Part shown: positions 23,218 through 28,407 of the stretch, one piece after another | How the letters are laid out: every line of letters begins with the position of its first letter | Numbering within the stretch: position 1 is the stretch's first letter | The notes under the pieces: generated by a model | The model's input: the letters and a program-made list of their open reading frames with translations, nothing else | Told to the model about the DNA's origin: nothing | The model's database searches: none | Made by a program: the position numbers and the translations under genes | Assembly (NCBI RefSeq): GCF_029872055.1 | Contig: NZ_JARXNQ010000001.1 | Span: forward strand, 372,001 to 436,000 | Reading direction: 5' to 3' | Source: Sulfurimonas sp. C5 | GTDB lineage: Bacteria; Campylobacterota; Campylobacteria; Campylobacterales; Sulfurimonadaceae | Length of the DNA: 64,000 nucleotides

Positions 23218-23286
23218 AGGTAACGTTTAAGTTGAGAAATATTTGAGCCGTAGGGTCATATATTTCTCTCCAATGATTTGTTATCA
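23218..23286 (-). repeat. attC site of integron cassette 6
   Basis: On the minus strand the inverse core TGATAAC (23280-23286) follows the gene by three bases, and the site ends at the outer core GTTACCT (23218-23224). The inner arms GAGAAATAT and ATATTTCTC form a 9-bp stem. It belongs to the same subfamily as attC4. This is the distal end of the array; no further cassette follows. Confidence 0.85.
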
Positions 23287-23289
23287 AAA

Positions 23290-23868
23290 TTAATTTGAAT
23301 ATAGTTCTATAGAATCAAGATTGTTTGATTCAATTTTTACAAAAATTTTGTCTGTTAATAATAAAATACTTCTATATTTTTCTATTTTATCTATAAATTG
23401 TTTAGCTATATTTTTTGCTTTAGTAAAATCATTCTTTACTTTTAACATTTCACCATCAAATGATTCTAAATCCTCTAATAATGGTAAGTATATTGATTGC
23501 ACACTATATGGAGATAAAAAAGGTAAATTTTGGACAACTAATAATTTTAATTCTTCAACACTTATAGATAACTTTTTAAATTCTTGTTCTACTTGATACA
23601 TTTTATCTTTAAAATTATCATCGTCATCTTGTATATTCAAAAAGACATATAATGCTATGTTGAAATGGTATGTAACAACGTTTGCAGATTTATATGTTTC
23701 TATTTGATAGTCAGAATATTTAAGTGCTAATGCTTGCTCATATGCAATGTCTTTTTTTTTACTATCTATTAAATATAAAGATACAAAACCTATTAATATT
23801 AAAGTAAAAAATAAAGCCACTTTATCATAAATTATTTTTTTTAAATCACTTAATTCATATTCTTTCAC
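23290..23868 (-). CDS. Integron cassette 6 protein: single-pass membrane protein, unknown
   Basis: No family recognised. The 192-residue product has one strong membrane span at about residues 18-37 (VALFFTLILIGFVSLYLID) near the N-terminus and then a long helical, partly coiled-coil region with several acidic patches (NIQDDDDNF). The start is GTG with AAGGAAG upstream. The cassette begins at core GTTATCA (23901-23907) and ends in attC6. GC content is low compared with the flanking chromosome, and codon use is strongly AT-biased. Architecture recalls cassette 3, which also joins a membrane span to coiled coil, but no sequence match is obvious. Confidence 0.75.
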   Translation of the reverse strand: MKEYELSDLKKIIYDKVALFFTLILIGFVSLYLIDSKKKDIAYEQALALKYSDYQIETYKSANVVTYHFNIALYVFLNIQDDDDNFKDKMYQVEQEFKKLSISVEELKLLVVQNLPFLSPYSVQSIYLPLLEDLESFDGEMLKVKNDFTKAKNIAKQFIDKIEKYRSILLLTDKIFVKIESNNLDSIELYSN

Positions 23869-23900
23869 TATACTTCCTTATATTTTAAATTCAGCTCTAC

Positions 23901-23972
23901 TGATAACGTTTGAAATGAGCAATCAAAAAGCCGCTCGCGGGTTTTTGATTGGTCTCCTGTGATTTGTTAGGC
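23901..23972 (-). repeat. attC site of integron cassette 5
   Basis: On the minus strand the inverse core GCCTAAC (23966-23972) follows the gene and the site ends in GTTATCA (23901-23907). The cassette's own opening core is GTTAGTC, whose complement GACTAAC differs at one base. The arms AATCAAAAA and TTTTTGATT form a stem around a GC-rich tip. Same subfamily as attC1. Confidence 0.88.
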
Positions 23973-23978
23973 TTTTGC

Positions 23979-24209
23979 CTATTGGCAAGCATCTGCCTGC
24001 CGTGCTCCGTAAGTTGCTTGATCCACGGTGTATTTGTCTCCGTAACTCGATGAAAGTTGTTCAATGAGGCCCTTGCACGAAAAACCTTGCATGCTAAGAT
24101 ATTGCTTAGCAGATCTAACTGCGTTTTTCTGAGGCCCAGTTAAACTTTCAGCCCAAGTAGGTACGGCAGCGAACAAAGTAGCAACCAATGCTATTATGAA
24201 AAGATTCAT
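23979..24209 (-). CDS. Integron cassette 5 protein: small exported Ltp-domain protein
   Basis: The 76-residue product has a signal peptide (MNLFIIALVATLFAAVPTWA, cleavage probably before ESLT) and one Ltp-type domain (PF07553-like helix-turn-helix: QKNAVRSAKQYLSMQGFS, then KGLIEQLSSSYGDKYTVDQA). The founding Ltp lipoprotein of a Streptococcus thermophilus prophage blocks DNA injection by related phages. Here there is no lipobox, and Cys45 and Cys75 could form a disulfide. By hand count its GC content is near 45 percent, well above the neighbouring cassettes, pointing to a different source genome. It has a clean AAGGAG ribosome site. Any phage role is inference. Confidence 0.78.
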   Translation of the reverse strand: MNLFIIALVATLFAAVPTWAESLTGPQKNAVRSAKQYLSMQGFSCKGLIEQLSSSYGDKYTVDQATYGARQADACQ

Positions 24210-24236
24210 TGTGTTTTCTCCTTGTGTAAAGTGTAA

Positions 24237-24304
24237 GACTAACGTTTATCTTGAGAAATAAGTCGCCGCTAGGCTACTTATTTCTCTCCTAGTATTTGTT
24301 ATAA
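24237..24304 (-). repeat. attC site of integron cassette 4
   Basis: The inverse core TTATAAC (24298-24304, minus strand) supplies the TAA stop codon of the cassette gene. The site ends at core GTTAGTC (24237-24243). The arms GAGAAATAAGT and ACTTATTTCTC form a perfect 11-bp stem around a 12-base tip. The cassette's opening core, GTTATAA, is the exact complement of its inverse core. Confidence 0.9.
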
Positions 24305-24913
24305 GTCTTTACTGCATTTACTACATTTATGACTATTCATGTTTGTATAAATTGTAAAACATACAATTAGTAAAATAAATCCACAAAATACTTCATATAC
24401 CGTCAAAAATTGAGGGAACCAATGAGAAGGAGATATATCTCCATAGCCTAAGGTAGTTATTGTTACTCCACTAAAATATATACTAGATTCTATATTGTTT
24501 GGTGAATTACAGTCTTTCCAAAATTCCATTGGTAATAAGAAGTAAATGATTGCAAAGTTAATAATTAGTTCAAGATAGCTTTTTAAAGACAAGGTTATTC
24601 TATCTGAAATAGAAAGGCTAGTATTATTTATACTATTATTTAATTTATCAAAAGCATCATTTAGAAAAGCAATGAATATTTCATTATTCCTTGACATTAA
24701 AAAATAGCCCCAAAGGATTAGCAATATTAGTCCAACATCATTGATTAAAACGTCTCTTGTTATATTAAACATAGCTAATAAAGTGGCACTAATTAATGCA
24801 ATTCCTAAATATATGGAATTTAGAGTTTTTATAGTGTTCGTTTTATCAAATATACTTTTTAGTCCAACTGCTAGTGCTAGTGTCGGTGATAAAATATATT
24901 TTACTAATTTCAT
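24299..24913 (-). CDS. Integron cassette 4 protein: potassium-channel-like membrane protein
   Basis: The 204-residue protein has hydrophobic spans at about 5-20, 33-52, 57-73, 112-130 and 163-190. Between the last two lies a pore-loop-like segment with the potassium selectivity filter TLGYGD (residues 154-159), as in Ion_trans_2 (PF07885) two-TM channels. The C-terminus ends in HKCSKCSKDL, a CxxC pair that could bind metal or respond to redox. No RCK domain is attached. The start ATG has AGGAG nearby. The stop codon is provided by the attC inverse core. Ion channels are unusual integron cargo. Confidence 0.82.
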   Translation of the reverse strand: MKLVKYILSPTLALAVGLKSIFDKTNTIKTLNSIYLGIALISATLLAMFNITRDVLINDVGLILLILWGYFLMSRNNEIFIAFLNDAFDKLNNSINNTSLSISDRITLSLKSYLELIINFAIIYFLLPMEFWKDCNSPNNIESSIYFSGVTITTLGYGDISPSHWFPQFLTVYEVFCGFILLIVCFTIYTNMNSHKCSKCSKDL

Positions 24914-24928
24914 AATACTCCTATGTTC

Positions 24929-24997
24929 TTATAACGTTTAAAATGAGCTGATGAATTGCCCGCAGGGTAATTTATTAGCTCCTCTGATTTGTTATAC
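24929..24997 (-). repeat. attC site of integron cassette 3
   Basis: The inverse core GTATAAC (24991-24997, minus strand) follows the gene by one base. The site ends at core GTTATAA (24929-24935). The tip CCCTGCGGG can fold on itself. Outside the cores it is about 93 percent identical to attC2. The cassette's opening core GTTATAC is the exact complement of its inverse core. Confidence 0.9.
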
Positions 24998-24998
24998 A

Positions 24999-25859
24999 TT
25001 AGTTATTTTCTAATCTATGACTTGCCTTTACTTCATATAAAAGTAATCCAATAAATAATAAATATACTAAATAATTAGCAATATGATTTACTATTTTTTG
25101 TTGAGAAATTTGTTTATTGTAAATAATTAGTAATTTTTCATACTTTTTATTTAAAGATATAATCTCTTCCCCATAGCTTCTTATAGGTTCAAGAAGGTAA
25201 TCTGGTTTTTTTAAACCAAATTTTGAATTATATTTAATTTTACCAATTAGTATTACTAATGGTATTTCTGCCATTACAGAATCTACTAATTTTTTTGTCT
25301 TATCCTTTTCATTTGATAATTGGTTGATTTTATTATTAGACTGAACAGATTGTTGTTTAATTGTTACTCGTAAATCATTGATTTCTTTATTTTGTTTTTC
25401 TATTTTATCCCTAATTAAAATTAGCTGTTTGATACTCTTATTAATTTCTTTAATTAGTATTGAATCATTTTTAGATATATCATCTATATTTAAATTTTCT
25501 AATATAAATACAATGTCATCCATTATAAATTGAGCATTTCTATTAAGTTCTAATATCATTCTTGACAATTGTTGCATTTGAGCAATATATTCATTGTACA
25601 TATTTAAATATTCTATGGTATTAATATTGTTTTTTGTTTTAAAGTCTTTAGAGTGAATTTTTAATTTTTGTAATAAGTTTTGTTCTTTCATTTTATCTAA
25701 ATATAAATATATTTCATTTCTAAAATATGCCTGTTGGAACCAATACTGAGAAACTTTACTATTCTGTTTGTCAGAAACTGGAAATAATGTTGCATTTATA
25801 AAATAAAGTAAAAATCCGCTACTTAATAATATAAGTAAAAATTTAAATTTAATATTCAT
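24999..25859 (-). CDS. Integron cassette 3 protein: coiled-coil membrane protein, unknown
   Basis: No family recognised. The 286-residue product has an N-terminal span (about 5-27, KFLLILLSSGFLLYFINATL), a long helical and coiled-coil middle (about 115-210, rich in Asn, Gln and Lys), and a C-terminal span (about 256-277, LVYLLFIGLLLYEV). This gives a probable periplasmic coiled coil fixed at both ends, an architecture seen in some sensors and envelope proteins. It is one of the most AT-rich stretches in the window. An AAGG lies nine bases before the ATG. Confidence 0.75.
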   Translation of the reverse strand: MNIKFKFLLILLSSGFLLYFINATLFPVSDKQNSKVSQYWFQQAYFRNEIYLYLDKMKEQNLLQKLKIHSKDFKTKNNINTIEYLNMYNEYIAQMQQLSRMILELNRNAQFIMDDIVFILENLNIDDISKNDSILIKEINKSIKQLILIRDKIEKQNKEINDLRVTIKQQSVQSNNKINQLSNEKDKTKKLVDSVMAEIPLVILIGKIKYNSKFGLKKPDYLLEPIRSYGEEIISLNKKYEKLLIIYNKQISQQKIVNHIANYLVYLLFIGLLLYEVKASHRLENN

Positions 25860-25874
25860 TGCTTGATGCCTTAT

Positions 25875-25943
25875 GTATAACGTTTAAAATGAGCCAATGA
25901 ATTGCCCGCAGGGTAATTTATTAGCTCCAATGATTTGTTATGT
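25875..25943 (-). repeat. attC site of integron cassette 2
   Basis: The inverse core ACATAAC (25937-25943, minus strand) contains the TAA stop codon of the cassette gene. The site ends at core GTTATAC (25875-25881). It is a near twin of attC3 with the same CCCTGCGGG tip. The opening core GTTATGT is the exact complement of its inverse core. Confidence 0.9.
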
Positions 25944-26426
25944 TCTACTCGTACCAATCTTTAACTTTCCAAAATAATAGCCGACTACAACCAAAGCAAT
26001 GTTACTAAGAACATTTGGTATTTCCATGCCTAGCAATGGCAGCAAACAAATTGTAGCTACTATAAAAACAGCTAAAAATGCAGGTAAGTTTTCAGTAATA
26101 TTGGCAAGGTTCAATTTTTCAGGTGGTGCTATCCATCGGACAATTCCTGCAAGAATGAGAAGTACCAAAATAGGAGAGAGAACAGAAATGGCTTTATTTG
26201 CTATTGGAAGTAAAGCTCTCCAAACTTCCATCATAGTGCTTTGAATAGTTGATGCTGCTGATGGAGAAATTTCATCAATTGCACCTGATATGATTAACAA
26301 GTACCCAAATGCAAGAACGACGATTACTATTACTGGTATTAAAACTATAGTTCCAACAATGCCAACAATACGATGTAAAACATCGTAAATATTTTTTTCG
26401 ACTTCCTTCGGTTGTTCTTCAGGCAT
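25938..26426 (-). CDS. Integron cassette 2 protein: multi-span membrane protein, unknown
   Basis: No family recognised. The 162-residue product is almost entirely hydrophobic, with about four spans (near 17-45, 78-97, 112-132 and 138-154) and a short charged N-terminus (MPEEQPKEVEKNIYD). It resembles small integral membrane proteins of unknown role that are common in integron arrays. The ribosome site AAGGAAAA lies directly before the ATG, and the stop codon is furnished by the attC inverse core. Confidence 0.75.
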   Translation of the reverse strand: MPEEQPKEVEKNIYDVLHRIVGIVGTIVLIPVIVIVVLAFGYLLIISGAIDEISPSAASTIQSTMMEVWRALLPIANKAISVLSPILVLLILAGIVRWIAPPEKLNLANITENLPAFLAVFIVATICLLPLLGMEIPNVLSNIALVVVGYYFGKLKIGTSRT

Positions 26427-26440
26427 ATTTTTCCTTTTTT

Positions 26441-26511
26441 ACATAACATTTAAAATGAGCAATCAAAAAGCTGCCCCGAGTTTTTGATTGGTCTCCTTTG
26501 GTTTGTTAAAT
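26441..26511 (-). repeat. attC site of integron cassette 1
   Basis: The inverse core ATTTAAC (26505-26511, minus strand) follows the gene by three bases. The site ends at core GTTATGT (26441-26447). The arms CAATCAAAAA and TTTTTGATTG form a 10-bp stem, then two unpaired bases and GAG/CTC pairing, as in the extrahelical bases of classical attC sites. The opening core at 27222-27228 is the exact complement of the inverse core. Confidence 0.9.
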
Positions 26512-26514
26512 TTC

Positions 26515-27207
26515 TCAATCTGGTGAAAATATTCTATGTATTATTTTTTCATTTTTCAGAATCTTTTTGGAAAATTCTTCTGAAAGAATGGATGGTTTAA
26601 ATAAAACTGTAACTAGAATGCGGTCTTTGGTAGTTACATTAGATGAGATACCTGATGGCGTATTTTCATTAATTGATTTTGGAGCTAAAACAATATTAAT
26701 CATTGACGTATATGGAATAGTTTGGTCATGAATAGTTAACTTGGATAAATATTTCATGATCGGAAGTCTTAAATCAACGTGAGCTAAAGCATTAGGAAGT
26801 AGCATTGCATCAAATGGAATTGAAATAGATATAGAGGGAAGAGGTCTCATTACCGCATTAGGTTCATCCAATGGATAGGTAAAAGGTGTGATTCCAATCA
26901 CTTCCATATGTAGTGCATCAATAGGAACTTTTCCAATATTTTTAATTGTTAGAACATTTTTCAAATCTTCTTGCAAAGTATTGGTATTAGTAAAATCAAA
27001 CTTTTTATTTTCTGTAATTATTTCAATTGCAGGGAGTTCTTTAACTAAACCCAATGAAATCTCATTTGATTGACGAGAAATTTTCAAAGCCTCTTCTGCC
27101 AAGCGATTACTGTTTTCAGCATTTTTTGTAGAAATATAAATTGTGAATAGACTCACAATAATACTAATTACAGCTAGCAAGAGTGTCAATTTTTCATTTT
27201 CTGTCAT
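26515..27207 (-). CDS. Integron cassette 1 protein: membrane-anchored protein, unknown
   Basis: No family recognised. The 230-residue product has one N-terminal span (about residues 6-26, KLTLLLAVISIIVSLFTIYI), a short helical stalk (ENSNRLAEEALKISRQSNEI) and a beta-rich remainder. The C-terminal domain should lie outside the cytoplasm or face it, depending on orientation. It is the cassette nearest the putative attI and promoter, so it is expected to be the best expressed and most recently acquired. AAAGGAAA precedes the ATG. Confidence 0.75.
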   Translation of the reverse strand: MTENEKLTLLLAVISIIVSLFTIYISTKNAENSNRLAEEALKISRQSNEISLGLVKELPAIEIITENKKFDFTNTNTLQEDLKNVLTIKNIGKVPIDALHMEVIGITPFTYPLDEPNAVMRPLPSISISIPFDAMLLPNALAHVDLRLPIMKYLSKLTIHDQTIPYTSMINIVLAPKSINENTPSGISSNVTTKDRILVTVLFKPSILSEEFSKKILKNEKIIHRIFSPD

Positions 27208-27221
27208 TAGTTTCCTTTTAG

Positions 27222-27289
27222 ATTTAACTATTTATTAGTAGTGCATTATATACAAGTTAGCTATAAAACTACTTAATATCGTATTATTT
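27222..27289 (-). promoter_or_regulatory. Putative attI insertion site and Pc promoter
   Basis: On the minus strand, cassette 1 opens with the consensus core GTTAAAT at 27222-27228 (GTTRRRY). About 17 bases before it is a TATAAT (27245-27250) that could be the -10 of the cassette promoter Pc, reading into the array; the -35 is weak. The core is not part of an attC here, so the flanking sequence is the attI side. Exact limits of attI and its second integrase-binding site cannot be fixed by eye. Confidence 0.5.
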
Positions 27290-27508
27290 AAAGTGTAATA
27301 CTATTAAGTTATGTTAAACATTCCAACTAAGGGGTTATAATATAAAAAGATGACAAATTGCAATATTTTATAACATATTTTAAAGATTTTTGTATCGTTT
27401 TTTATGTATAACTATTAACGTATATCTGTAATATCTTATCAAAATGTCAAGATATCAAGCAAAAATCGTAATAGTTTAGCAAAATGACAAATATATCAGG
27501 AGTAGATT
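27229..27508. other. AT-rich noncoding region between cassette 1 and the intI remnant
   Basis: This stretch of about 280 bases has no credible gene. It holds the putative Pc promoter on the minus strand and, near its right end, two related 18- to 19-bp direct repeats (CAAAATGTCAAGATATCA at 27440-27457 and CAAAATGACAAATATATCA at 27480-27498), 40 bp apart. A shorter GATGACAAATT lies near 27350. The repeats sit just before the intI ribosome site and could be integrase or regulator binding sites. Confidence 0.6.
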
Positions 27509-27607
27509 ATGGCAAAAAAATTACTTGATATTATGAGAGACAAAATACGATTTAAACATTACAGTATAAAAACAGAACAAAGTTATATAGGCTGGGCTAA
27601 GAGGTGA
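27509..27607 (+). pseudogene. Truncated integron integrase (intI remnant, 32 codons)
   Basis: The 32-residue product contains LLDIMRDKIRFKHYSIKTEQ and SYIGWAKR. This is the N-terminal SAM-like core-binding start of integron integrases (compare IntI1-type LLDQ..REAIR.KHYS.RTE.AYVHWIKRF). A good CAGGAG site and ATG are kept, and the frame stops at TGA exactly where the family continues with the phenylalanine after KR. The catalytic tyrosine-recombinase domain (Arg-His-Arg-Tyr) is absent, and only 23 bases separate the stop from the end of xth. Its orientation, divergent from the cassettes, is canonical. It is non-functional. Confidence 0.82.
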
Positions 27608-27617
27608 AATTAGGTAG

Positions 27618-27641
27618 TAGCACTATAGAATTATAGTGCTA
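27618..27641. terminator. Hairpin at the xth 3' end and intI remnant
   Basis: TAGCACTATA at 27618-27627 pairs perfectly with TATAGTGCTA at 27632-27641 around a four-base loop, ten base pairs in all. On the plus strand it is followed by ATTTT. It overlaps the xth stop codon and can act on both converging transcripts. It may be the scar where the rest of intI was lost. Confidence 0.6.
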
Positions 27642-28407
27642 TTTTAATTCCGACAGGGCAGTGATCTGAACCTTCGATGTAGTCAAGTATAAACGCGTCT
27701 TCCAGGTTTTCTGCCAAATCTTCAGAGATAAAAAAGTAATCAATTCTCCATCCAACATTTTTGAGTCTTGCATTGGCACGATACGACCACCAGCTGTATC
27801 TGTCTAATTCATCACCGTGAACATATCTGAAAGTATCTATATAGCCATGTTCTAAAAGTTTGTCGATCCAGGCACGCTCGATTGGCAGGAATCCTGATGT
27901 TTTAGAATTTGCCTTTGGATTTTTAAGGTCTATTTCACGGTGTGCGGTATTAACATCTCCGCAGATAATAATACTTTTACCTTCTTCTCTTAAACCCTCA
28001 CAATGTTCTAGAAATCTGTCGTAGAACTCCATTTTATAGTTTAGTCTGTCTTCATCTTTTTGACCGTTAGGAAAGTAGACATTAAAAAGCACTATGTCAT
28101 CAAAGTGTGTTTCAACAATACGTCCTTCATTTAAAAGGTCAATATGGTTCGCTGTTGATGTAAGGGTAGTTGATAAAGAAGTGTACGTTGCCGTACCGCT
28201 ATAACCTTTTTTCTCGGCTGGGTTGACATATCTTTCAAGGTAATTCTTTTCAAACATATTCTCAGGGATCTGATCTTCTAGTGCTTTGATTTCCTGAAAA
28301 CATACTATATCTGGATCTCTTTCATCTACCCATTTGAGGGCTTCTTTGTTTGCAACTGCACGGATACCGTTAACATTCCATGAAATTATTTCGATTGAAT
28401 CTGACAT
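27631..28407 (-). CDS. xth: Exodeoxyribonuclease III
   Basis: Xth is the AP endonuclease and 3'-phosphatase of base-excision repair. Characteristic motifs are SWNVNGIRAV, CFQEIKALEDQIPE, YFPNGQKDEDRLNYKMEFYD, ICGDVNTAHREIDLKNPKAN, RYSWWSYRANARLKNVGWRI (then DYF) and the terminal GSDHCPVGI. All catalytic acidic residues and the final His of the family are present. At 258 residues it is full length. It directly borders the integron on the right. Confidence 0.96.
   Translation of the reverse strand: MSDSIEIISWNVNGIRAVANKEALKWVDERDPDIVCFQEIKALEDQIPENMFEKNYLERYVNPAEKKGYSGTATYTSLSTTLTSTANHIDLLNEGRIVETHFDDIVLFNVYFPNGQKDEDRLNYKMEFYDRFLEHCEGLREEGKSIIICGDVNTAHREIDLKNPKANSKTSGFLPIERAWIDKLLEHGYIDTFRYVHGDELDRYSWWSYRANARLKNVGWRIDYFFISEDLAENLEDAFILDYIEGSDHCPVGIKIAL

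Follow-up and report, generated by a model that had tools for sequence, protein, structure and literature searches.

Architecture of the cassette array

In the 2.06 Mb genome of Sulfurimonas sp. C5, a stretch of 64,000 nucleotides (positions 372001-436000 of contig 1; termed the window in the following and numbered from its first letter) harbours a short integron with six gene cassettes. The cassette array occupies positions 23222-27207 on the minus strand and is read in the direction away from position 27208. Each of its six open reading frames (ORFs) is preceded by a purine-rich sequence resembling a ribosome-binding site and followed by an attC site of its own, such that the array comprises one attC site per cassette.

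Cassette 1 (26515-27207) encodes a protein of 230 amino acids with one N-terminal span (residues 7-25) and is followed by attC 1 at 26445-26508. The product of cassette 2 (25938-26426; attC 2 at 25879-25940) is a multi-span membrane protein of 162 amino acids, and that of cassette 3 (24999-25859; attC 3 at 24933-24994) a protein of 286 amino acids with spans at both ends, between which a long section was read as coiled coil. Cassette 4 (24299-24913; attC 4 at 24241-24301) codes for a potassium channel of 204 amino acids with four spans, and cassette 5 (23979-24209; attC 5 at 23905-23969) for a protein of 76 amino acids composed of a predicted signal peptide and one Ltp repeat, the hallmark of a superinfection exclusion family. 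Cassette 6 (23290-23868), which starts with GTG, encodes 192 amino acids with one N-terminal span (residues 17-35); attC 6 at 23222-23283 marks the far end of the array. All cassettes and attC sites are located on the minus strand.

Folding of four attC sites in either orientation showed all four to be more stable on the plus strand of the window, i.e. the bottom strand of the array, which is the behaviour expected of attC sites. A covariance model built from the six sites of the window and 17 sites of relatives found matches in 96 out of 120 congeneric genomes. In the genome of strain C5 itself, this model yielded seven matches, namely the six window sites and the opposite strand of attC 2, and detected no second array. 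A search against Rfam returned no match. The six sites resemble three pairs with common hairpin arms (attC 1 and 5, attC 2 and 3, attC 4 and 6).

The attI region and the truncated integrase gene

Next to cassette 1, an attI region (27222-27508, minus strand) with the core GTTAAAT at 27228-27222 adjoins a remnant of the integrase gene intI (27509-27607, plus strand) that consists of the first 32 codons and then a stop. Positions 27226-27605 share 88.5 % identity with the attI-intI region of a congeneric genome (G028); this homology begins at the attI core and ends at 27605, after intI codon 32, and the remaining residues are identical (32/32) to those of the intact IntI of G028. A full-length integron integrase is thus lacking at the locus, and no other integrase scored above the family cut-off anywhere in the genome. 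Because attC sites, attI and a 32-codon intI are present and an integrase was not found elsewhere, the locus is a real integron, the integrase of which is truncated. The truncated intI is fused to sequence adjoining an exonuclease III-like gene (27631-28407), while 27226-27607 is otherwise well preserved relative to G028.

In carrying an attC array without functional intI, the locus resembles clusters of attC sites lacking integron integrases (CALIN). It differs from these in that attI and the initial 32 intI codons are retained, so that the loss remains visible, with the surviving residues matching those of an intact relative. With intI truncated, the six cassettes would be immobile unless an integrase is supplied in trans, and they probably represent separate acquisitions rather than one system.

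Cassette 5 encodes an Ltp-family protein

The product of cassette 5 matches the Pfam family Lipoprotein_Ltp (PF07553) with an E-value of 1.8e-15 and 57.2 bits (cut-off 23.2), and PHROG 15667 (superinfection exclusion) with 6.6e-26. A profile of 32 relatives of the protein also matches, by sequence, the solved structure of Ltp from Streptococcus thermophilus phage TP-J34 (PDB 4eqq; 1.1e-9), a superinfection exclusion lipoprotein. An AlphaFold2 model of the protein reached a mean predicted local distance difference test score (pLDDT) of 71, with values of about 81-86 from residue 31 onward. Foldseek placed 4eqq first among the matches to this model (probability 1.00; root-mean-square deviation, rmsd, 1.4-1.6), at an E-value of only 0.12 for this very small domain, and VIA-align gave 4eqq a Z-score of 5.9, the next row being at 4.7.

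TP-J34 Ltp prevents phage DNA from being injected, its repeat domain being an interaction partner of the tape-measure protein, as summarized in PMC3952083 with reference to Bebeacua 2013. The cassette 5 protein shares with it the Ltp repeat, a predicted three-helix domain (rmsd 1.4-2.0 to 4eqq in the models) and an exported N-terminus, the latter likewise predicted. In contrast to TP-J34 Ltp, which has two tandem repeats, it contains only one. Moreover, the signal-like segment ends with VPTWA and the first cysteine is residue 45; a lipobox is therefore absent and a periplasmic rather than a lipid-anchored protein is to be expected. The gene also differs in residing on an integron instead of a prophage and in belonging to a Gram-negative type in which a pair of cysteines is conserved. 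These cysteines (residues 45 and 75) vary hardly or not at all among the relatives and would suit a periplasmic disulphide. The nearest annotated phage relatives carry the label superinfection exclusion and come from Psychrobacter phage Psymv2 and Acinetobacter phage AbIPP1; identities to the Psymv2 gene and the Acinetobacter phage relatives amount to about 51-62 % over the matched part. In Psymv2, unlike in the integron, the gene has the head-tail adaptor gene on one side and the tape-measure gene on the other.

At 0.45, the GC content of cassette 5 stands apart from that of the other five cassettes (0.21-0.36), which fits a recent foreign origin. Among 150 genomes of the order, the genome of strain C5 was the only one positive for Ltp.

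In the single repeat of cassette 5, the beginning of repeat 1 seems to be connected to the end of repeat 2. A two-repeat Ltp gene that had decayed into a non-functional remnant would look the same, and no test of this Ltp subfamily or of its single-repeat form was found in the literature. Yet the gene has retained its reading frame, signal peptide, ribosome-binding site and cysteine pair, and the short form does not stand alone, since single-repeat, full-length matches occur in Serratia nevei (77 % identical) and on a contig of an Altiarchaeales metagenome-assembled genome (71 %). A decayed gene is accordingly considered rather unlikely, and cassette 5 most likely specifies a superinfection exclusion protein. 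By analogy to TP-J34 Ltp, it would be exported to the periplasm with removal of the signal peptide, where the helical repeat would meet the tape-measure protein or tail tip of an incoming phage and block DNA entry. On the contig labelled Altiarchaeales, the single-repeat Ltp gene (L073, 3966-4250) has a GC content of 0.47 and lies between GTTAGGC on the upstream and GCCTAAC on the downstream side.

Cassette 4 and the cassettes without known family

Cassette 4 belongs to the Ion_trans_2 family (3.6e-13), displays the selectivity filter TLGYGD and matches solved channels in the pore domain; the product is most likely an inner-membrane potassium channel. Its best relative found is a 214 amino acid ORF on a plasmid of Pseudoalteromonas sp. 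CF6-2 (42 % identity over 89 %; L148, 4016-4735), which is missing from the incomplete gene table of the plasmid record. This ORF is preceded by GTTAGCC and directly followed by an attC-like hairpin. As 29 out of 300 shuffles fold equally well, the fold by itself says little about this hairpin, while its position and core sites fit. The congeneric genomes contain only distant channels, and no phage relatives of cassette 4 were found.

Cassettes 1, 2, 3 and 6 could not be assigned to a known family, cassette 1 having no Pfam family above cut-off. For cassettes 1, 2 and 6, no clear relative was found in the genus. Cassette 3 has one homologue (53 %) among the 120 congeneric genomes (G117; L110, 1504-2367), which is followed by TATAACAAATC, a sequence resembling one half of attC. 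Two assignments to defence genes were considered and not adopted, as both matches stayed below threshold: cassette 1 as SLATT effector (16.2 bits versus a cut-off of 60, and a single span where SLATT has two) and cassette 2 as KwaA of the Kiwa system (E 0.11). A single-sequence structure prediction of cassette 1 was discarded on account of its mean pLDDT of 40. A scan for close relatives in IMG/VR revealed no viral relatives of cassettes 1, 2, 3, 4 and 6, and plasmid relatives of cassettes 1, 2 and 3 were not found.

An earlier note on this DNA had recognized the channel as the only known family among the five larger products and had suggested possible roles in defence or transport. The channel assignment holds; with cassette 5 recognizable as Ltp, two of the six products can now be named. 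By family membership, transport would apply to cassette 4 and defence to cassette 5, and neither suggestion gained a usable lead for cassettes 1, 2, 3 and 6.

Membrane and signal segments compared with sister arrays

Targeting was called from hydropathy only, as the best 19-residue Kyte-Doolittle average (KD19) with a threshold of 1.9. This rule was calibrated with 111 proteins of E. coli, labelled from annotation and general knowledge, where the threshold was reached by none of 82 cytosolic proteins and by 23 out of 29 membrane or exported proteins. The maxima for cassettes 1 to 6 are 2.64, 3.21, 2.02, 2.33, 1.90 and 2.34, respectively. The proposal of the earlier note that all six products are membrane or exported proteins thus stands, all of them reaching at least 1.90 and none being cytosolic by this rule, with two or more cytosolic products having been named as the outcome that would contradict it. 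The topologies described there likewise largely agree with the hydropathy calls: one N-terminal span in cassettes 1 and 6, a span at either terminus, with a long region in between, in cassette 3, three segments above threshold in cassette 2, four in cassette 4, and a signal peptide in cassette 5. Shuffling of residues is uninformative as a control for cassettes 2 and 4, the composition of which alone yields hydrophobic windows.

A baseline was derived from arrays of the same genus (one or two loci from the same order), located with the above covariance model of the window's attC sites, by mechanically calling ORFs between adjacent attC sites and excluding the window from the shares. A KD19 of at least 1.9 was attained by 29 out of 130 sense cassette ORFs (22 %), by 19 of the 57 ORFs in single-ORF cassettes, and by 17 out of 39 (44 %) in single-ORF cassettes of 100-300 amino acids. 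The last figure is the fairer one, because spurious ORFs depress the mechanical baseline. Against the three baselines, the nominal probability of six out of six is 1.2e-4, 0.0014 and 0.0069, and Fisher tests gave 2e-4 to 0.012. Low GC content was dismissed as a source of apparent membrane segments, as membrane and soluble baseline cassettes do not differ in this respect (p 0.17).

The sister arrays together hold soluble defence and toxin-antitoxin families (PD-T7-4, AbiTii, CAP12 TIR, BrnT and ParE); known or candidate defence genes are therefore normal cargo in arrays of this genus. When L034, L044, L045, L048, L052, L056 and other sister arrays are pooled, PD-T7-4, AbiTii, CAP12 TIR, NsnA and several PDC families are represented. 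The statement in the earlier note that the array departs from the usual mix of cargo is hence moderately supported, with 22-44 % membrane or exported products in sister arrays alongside soluble defence and toxin-antitoxin genes.

Enrichment of integron cargo in exported products is already known (PMC9668308, PMC10963911). Signal peptides were reported for 11-14 % of cassettes and signal or membrane segments for about a third (PMC10963911), and 13.2 % of archaeal cassettes carry signal peptides versus 6.9 % in their genomes (PMC9668308). The run of six could represent chance on top of this bias, without any selection for envelope functions. Assuming the membrane share of about 44 % found in comparable cassettes, a single array would show six out of six with a p of about 0.007-0.012. 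Label shuffles over 20 arrays, that of the window among them, produced a run of six in 0.9 % of cases, and there were many arrays and windows in which a pattern might have caught attention. On the other hand, none of the other arrays among the 20 comes close, the longest membrane run elsewhere being three, at the looser threshold of 1.6. Chance alone is judged to have a little less than an even claim. Conversely, the array could be an envelope-defence island, all six cassettes having been kept for action at the envelope against phage entry or similar attack. Such an island would agree with the six-of-six targeting, with the presence of one Ltp-family member and with the defence genes in sister arrays. 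However, cassette 5 is the sole link to defence, the matches of cassettes 1 and 2 to SLATT and KwaA lie below threshold, the remaining five cassettes have no relatives on viral contigs by the close-relative scan, and the array was selected after the fact; this possibility is regarded as highly improbable.

The excess of envelope cargo, on top of the known bias and in an array picked post hoc, is suggestive, and does not establish one joint function. Selection for envelope functions, as the earlier note had suggested, was not borne out, because only six genes are concerned, the array was chosen for its pattern, an export bias is known and cassettes are gained one by one. That interpretation is partly supported: it overreaches with respect to a joint envelope function; defence is nevertheless in play, with cassette 5 as the clearest case. 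The common targeting most likely reflects the known bias of integrons towards exported cargo, drawn out by chance, to which retention after loss of the integrase perhaps also contributes. The present comparison supplies a measured genus-level baseline for exported cargo, relative to which the array is unusual, if not decisively so.

As a whole, an integron with truncated integrase and independent cassettes, including a superinfection exclusion protein (cassette 5) and a channel (cassette 4), is the explanation preferred here with reasonable, if limited, confidence. Several observations weigh against it. Four of the cassettes are without known family, as noted above, and promoter-like matches for the array were no more numerous than in shuffles. 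Cassette 5 has a single repeat, while TP-J34 Ltp and most Gram-negative relatives have two, and it is devoid of a lipid anchor. For the Gram-negative Ltp subfamily, the literature found provides annotation only, activity being documented in Gram-positive hosts.

Possible Ltp cassettes in other genomes

Ltp-type genes are known as accessory genes of phages and prophages, the family being mostly phage-borne. In the incompletely covered literature, Ltp genes were not found described as integron cassettes, integrons and Ltp or superinfection exclusion being mentioned together only incidentally. The genus-specific attC model gave no match at Ltp loci of other phyla and was replaced by a fold-based scan of 35 Ltp loci (493 kb when both strands are counted), which is blind to the attC sites of the window itself, as their outer box is TATAAC-like and not RYYYAAC. 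Four out of the 14 attC-like matches obtained end 27-41 bases before the start codon of the Ltp gene, on the strand of the gene. They belong to Tepidicella xavieri, Halomonas sp. EAR18, Billgrantia gudaonensis and Chromohalobacter israelensis. In T. xavieri, attC-like sites flank the Ltp gene, more than one of them following it, and a fragment of IntI is located about 2.3 kb off in the opposite direction; in the remaining three genomes, it is mainly the upstream attC-like site that speaks for a cassette. Whether Ltp genes form a recurrent class of integron cassettes, moving between phyla (Campylobacterota, Betaproteobacteria, Halomonadaceae) and spreading immunity that blocks DNA entry, appears evenly balanced on present evidence.

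Recent work has shown that integrons store anti-phage genes, a large number of them overlooked by standard tools. According to the account in PMC12409362, anti-phage cassettes are known from Vibrio and from mobile integrons (Darracq 2025, Kieffer 2025, Getz 2025). As described there, these are small single genes with their own attC, some of them anti-phage and representing compact forms of defence genes, in which respect the present cassettes are alike; the host of the window differs from those in that account by belonging to another phylum, and the integron by its truncated integrase. The Ltp family, the known mode of which is to stop phage DNA entry from outside the cytoplasm, is integron cargo in Campylobacterota and apparently also in three other lineages. 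Ltp cassettes thereby offer a cheap and direct test of whether entry-blocking immunity, too, is spread by integrons.

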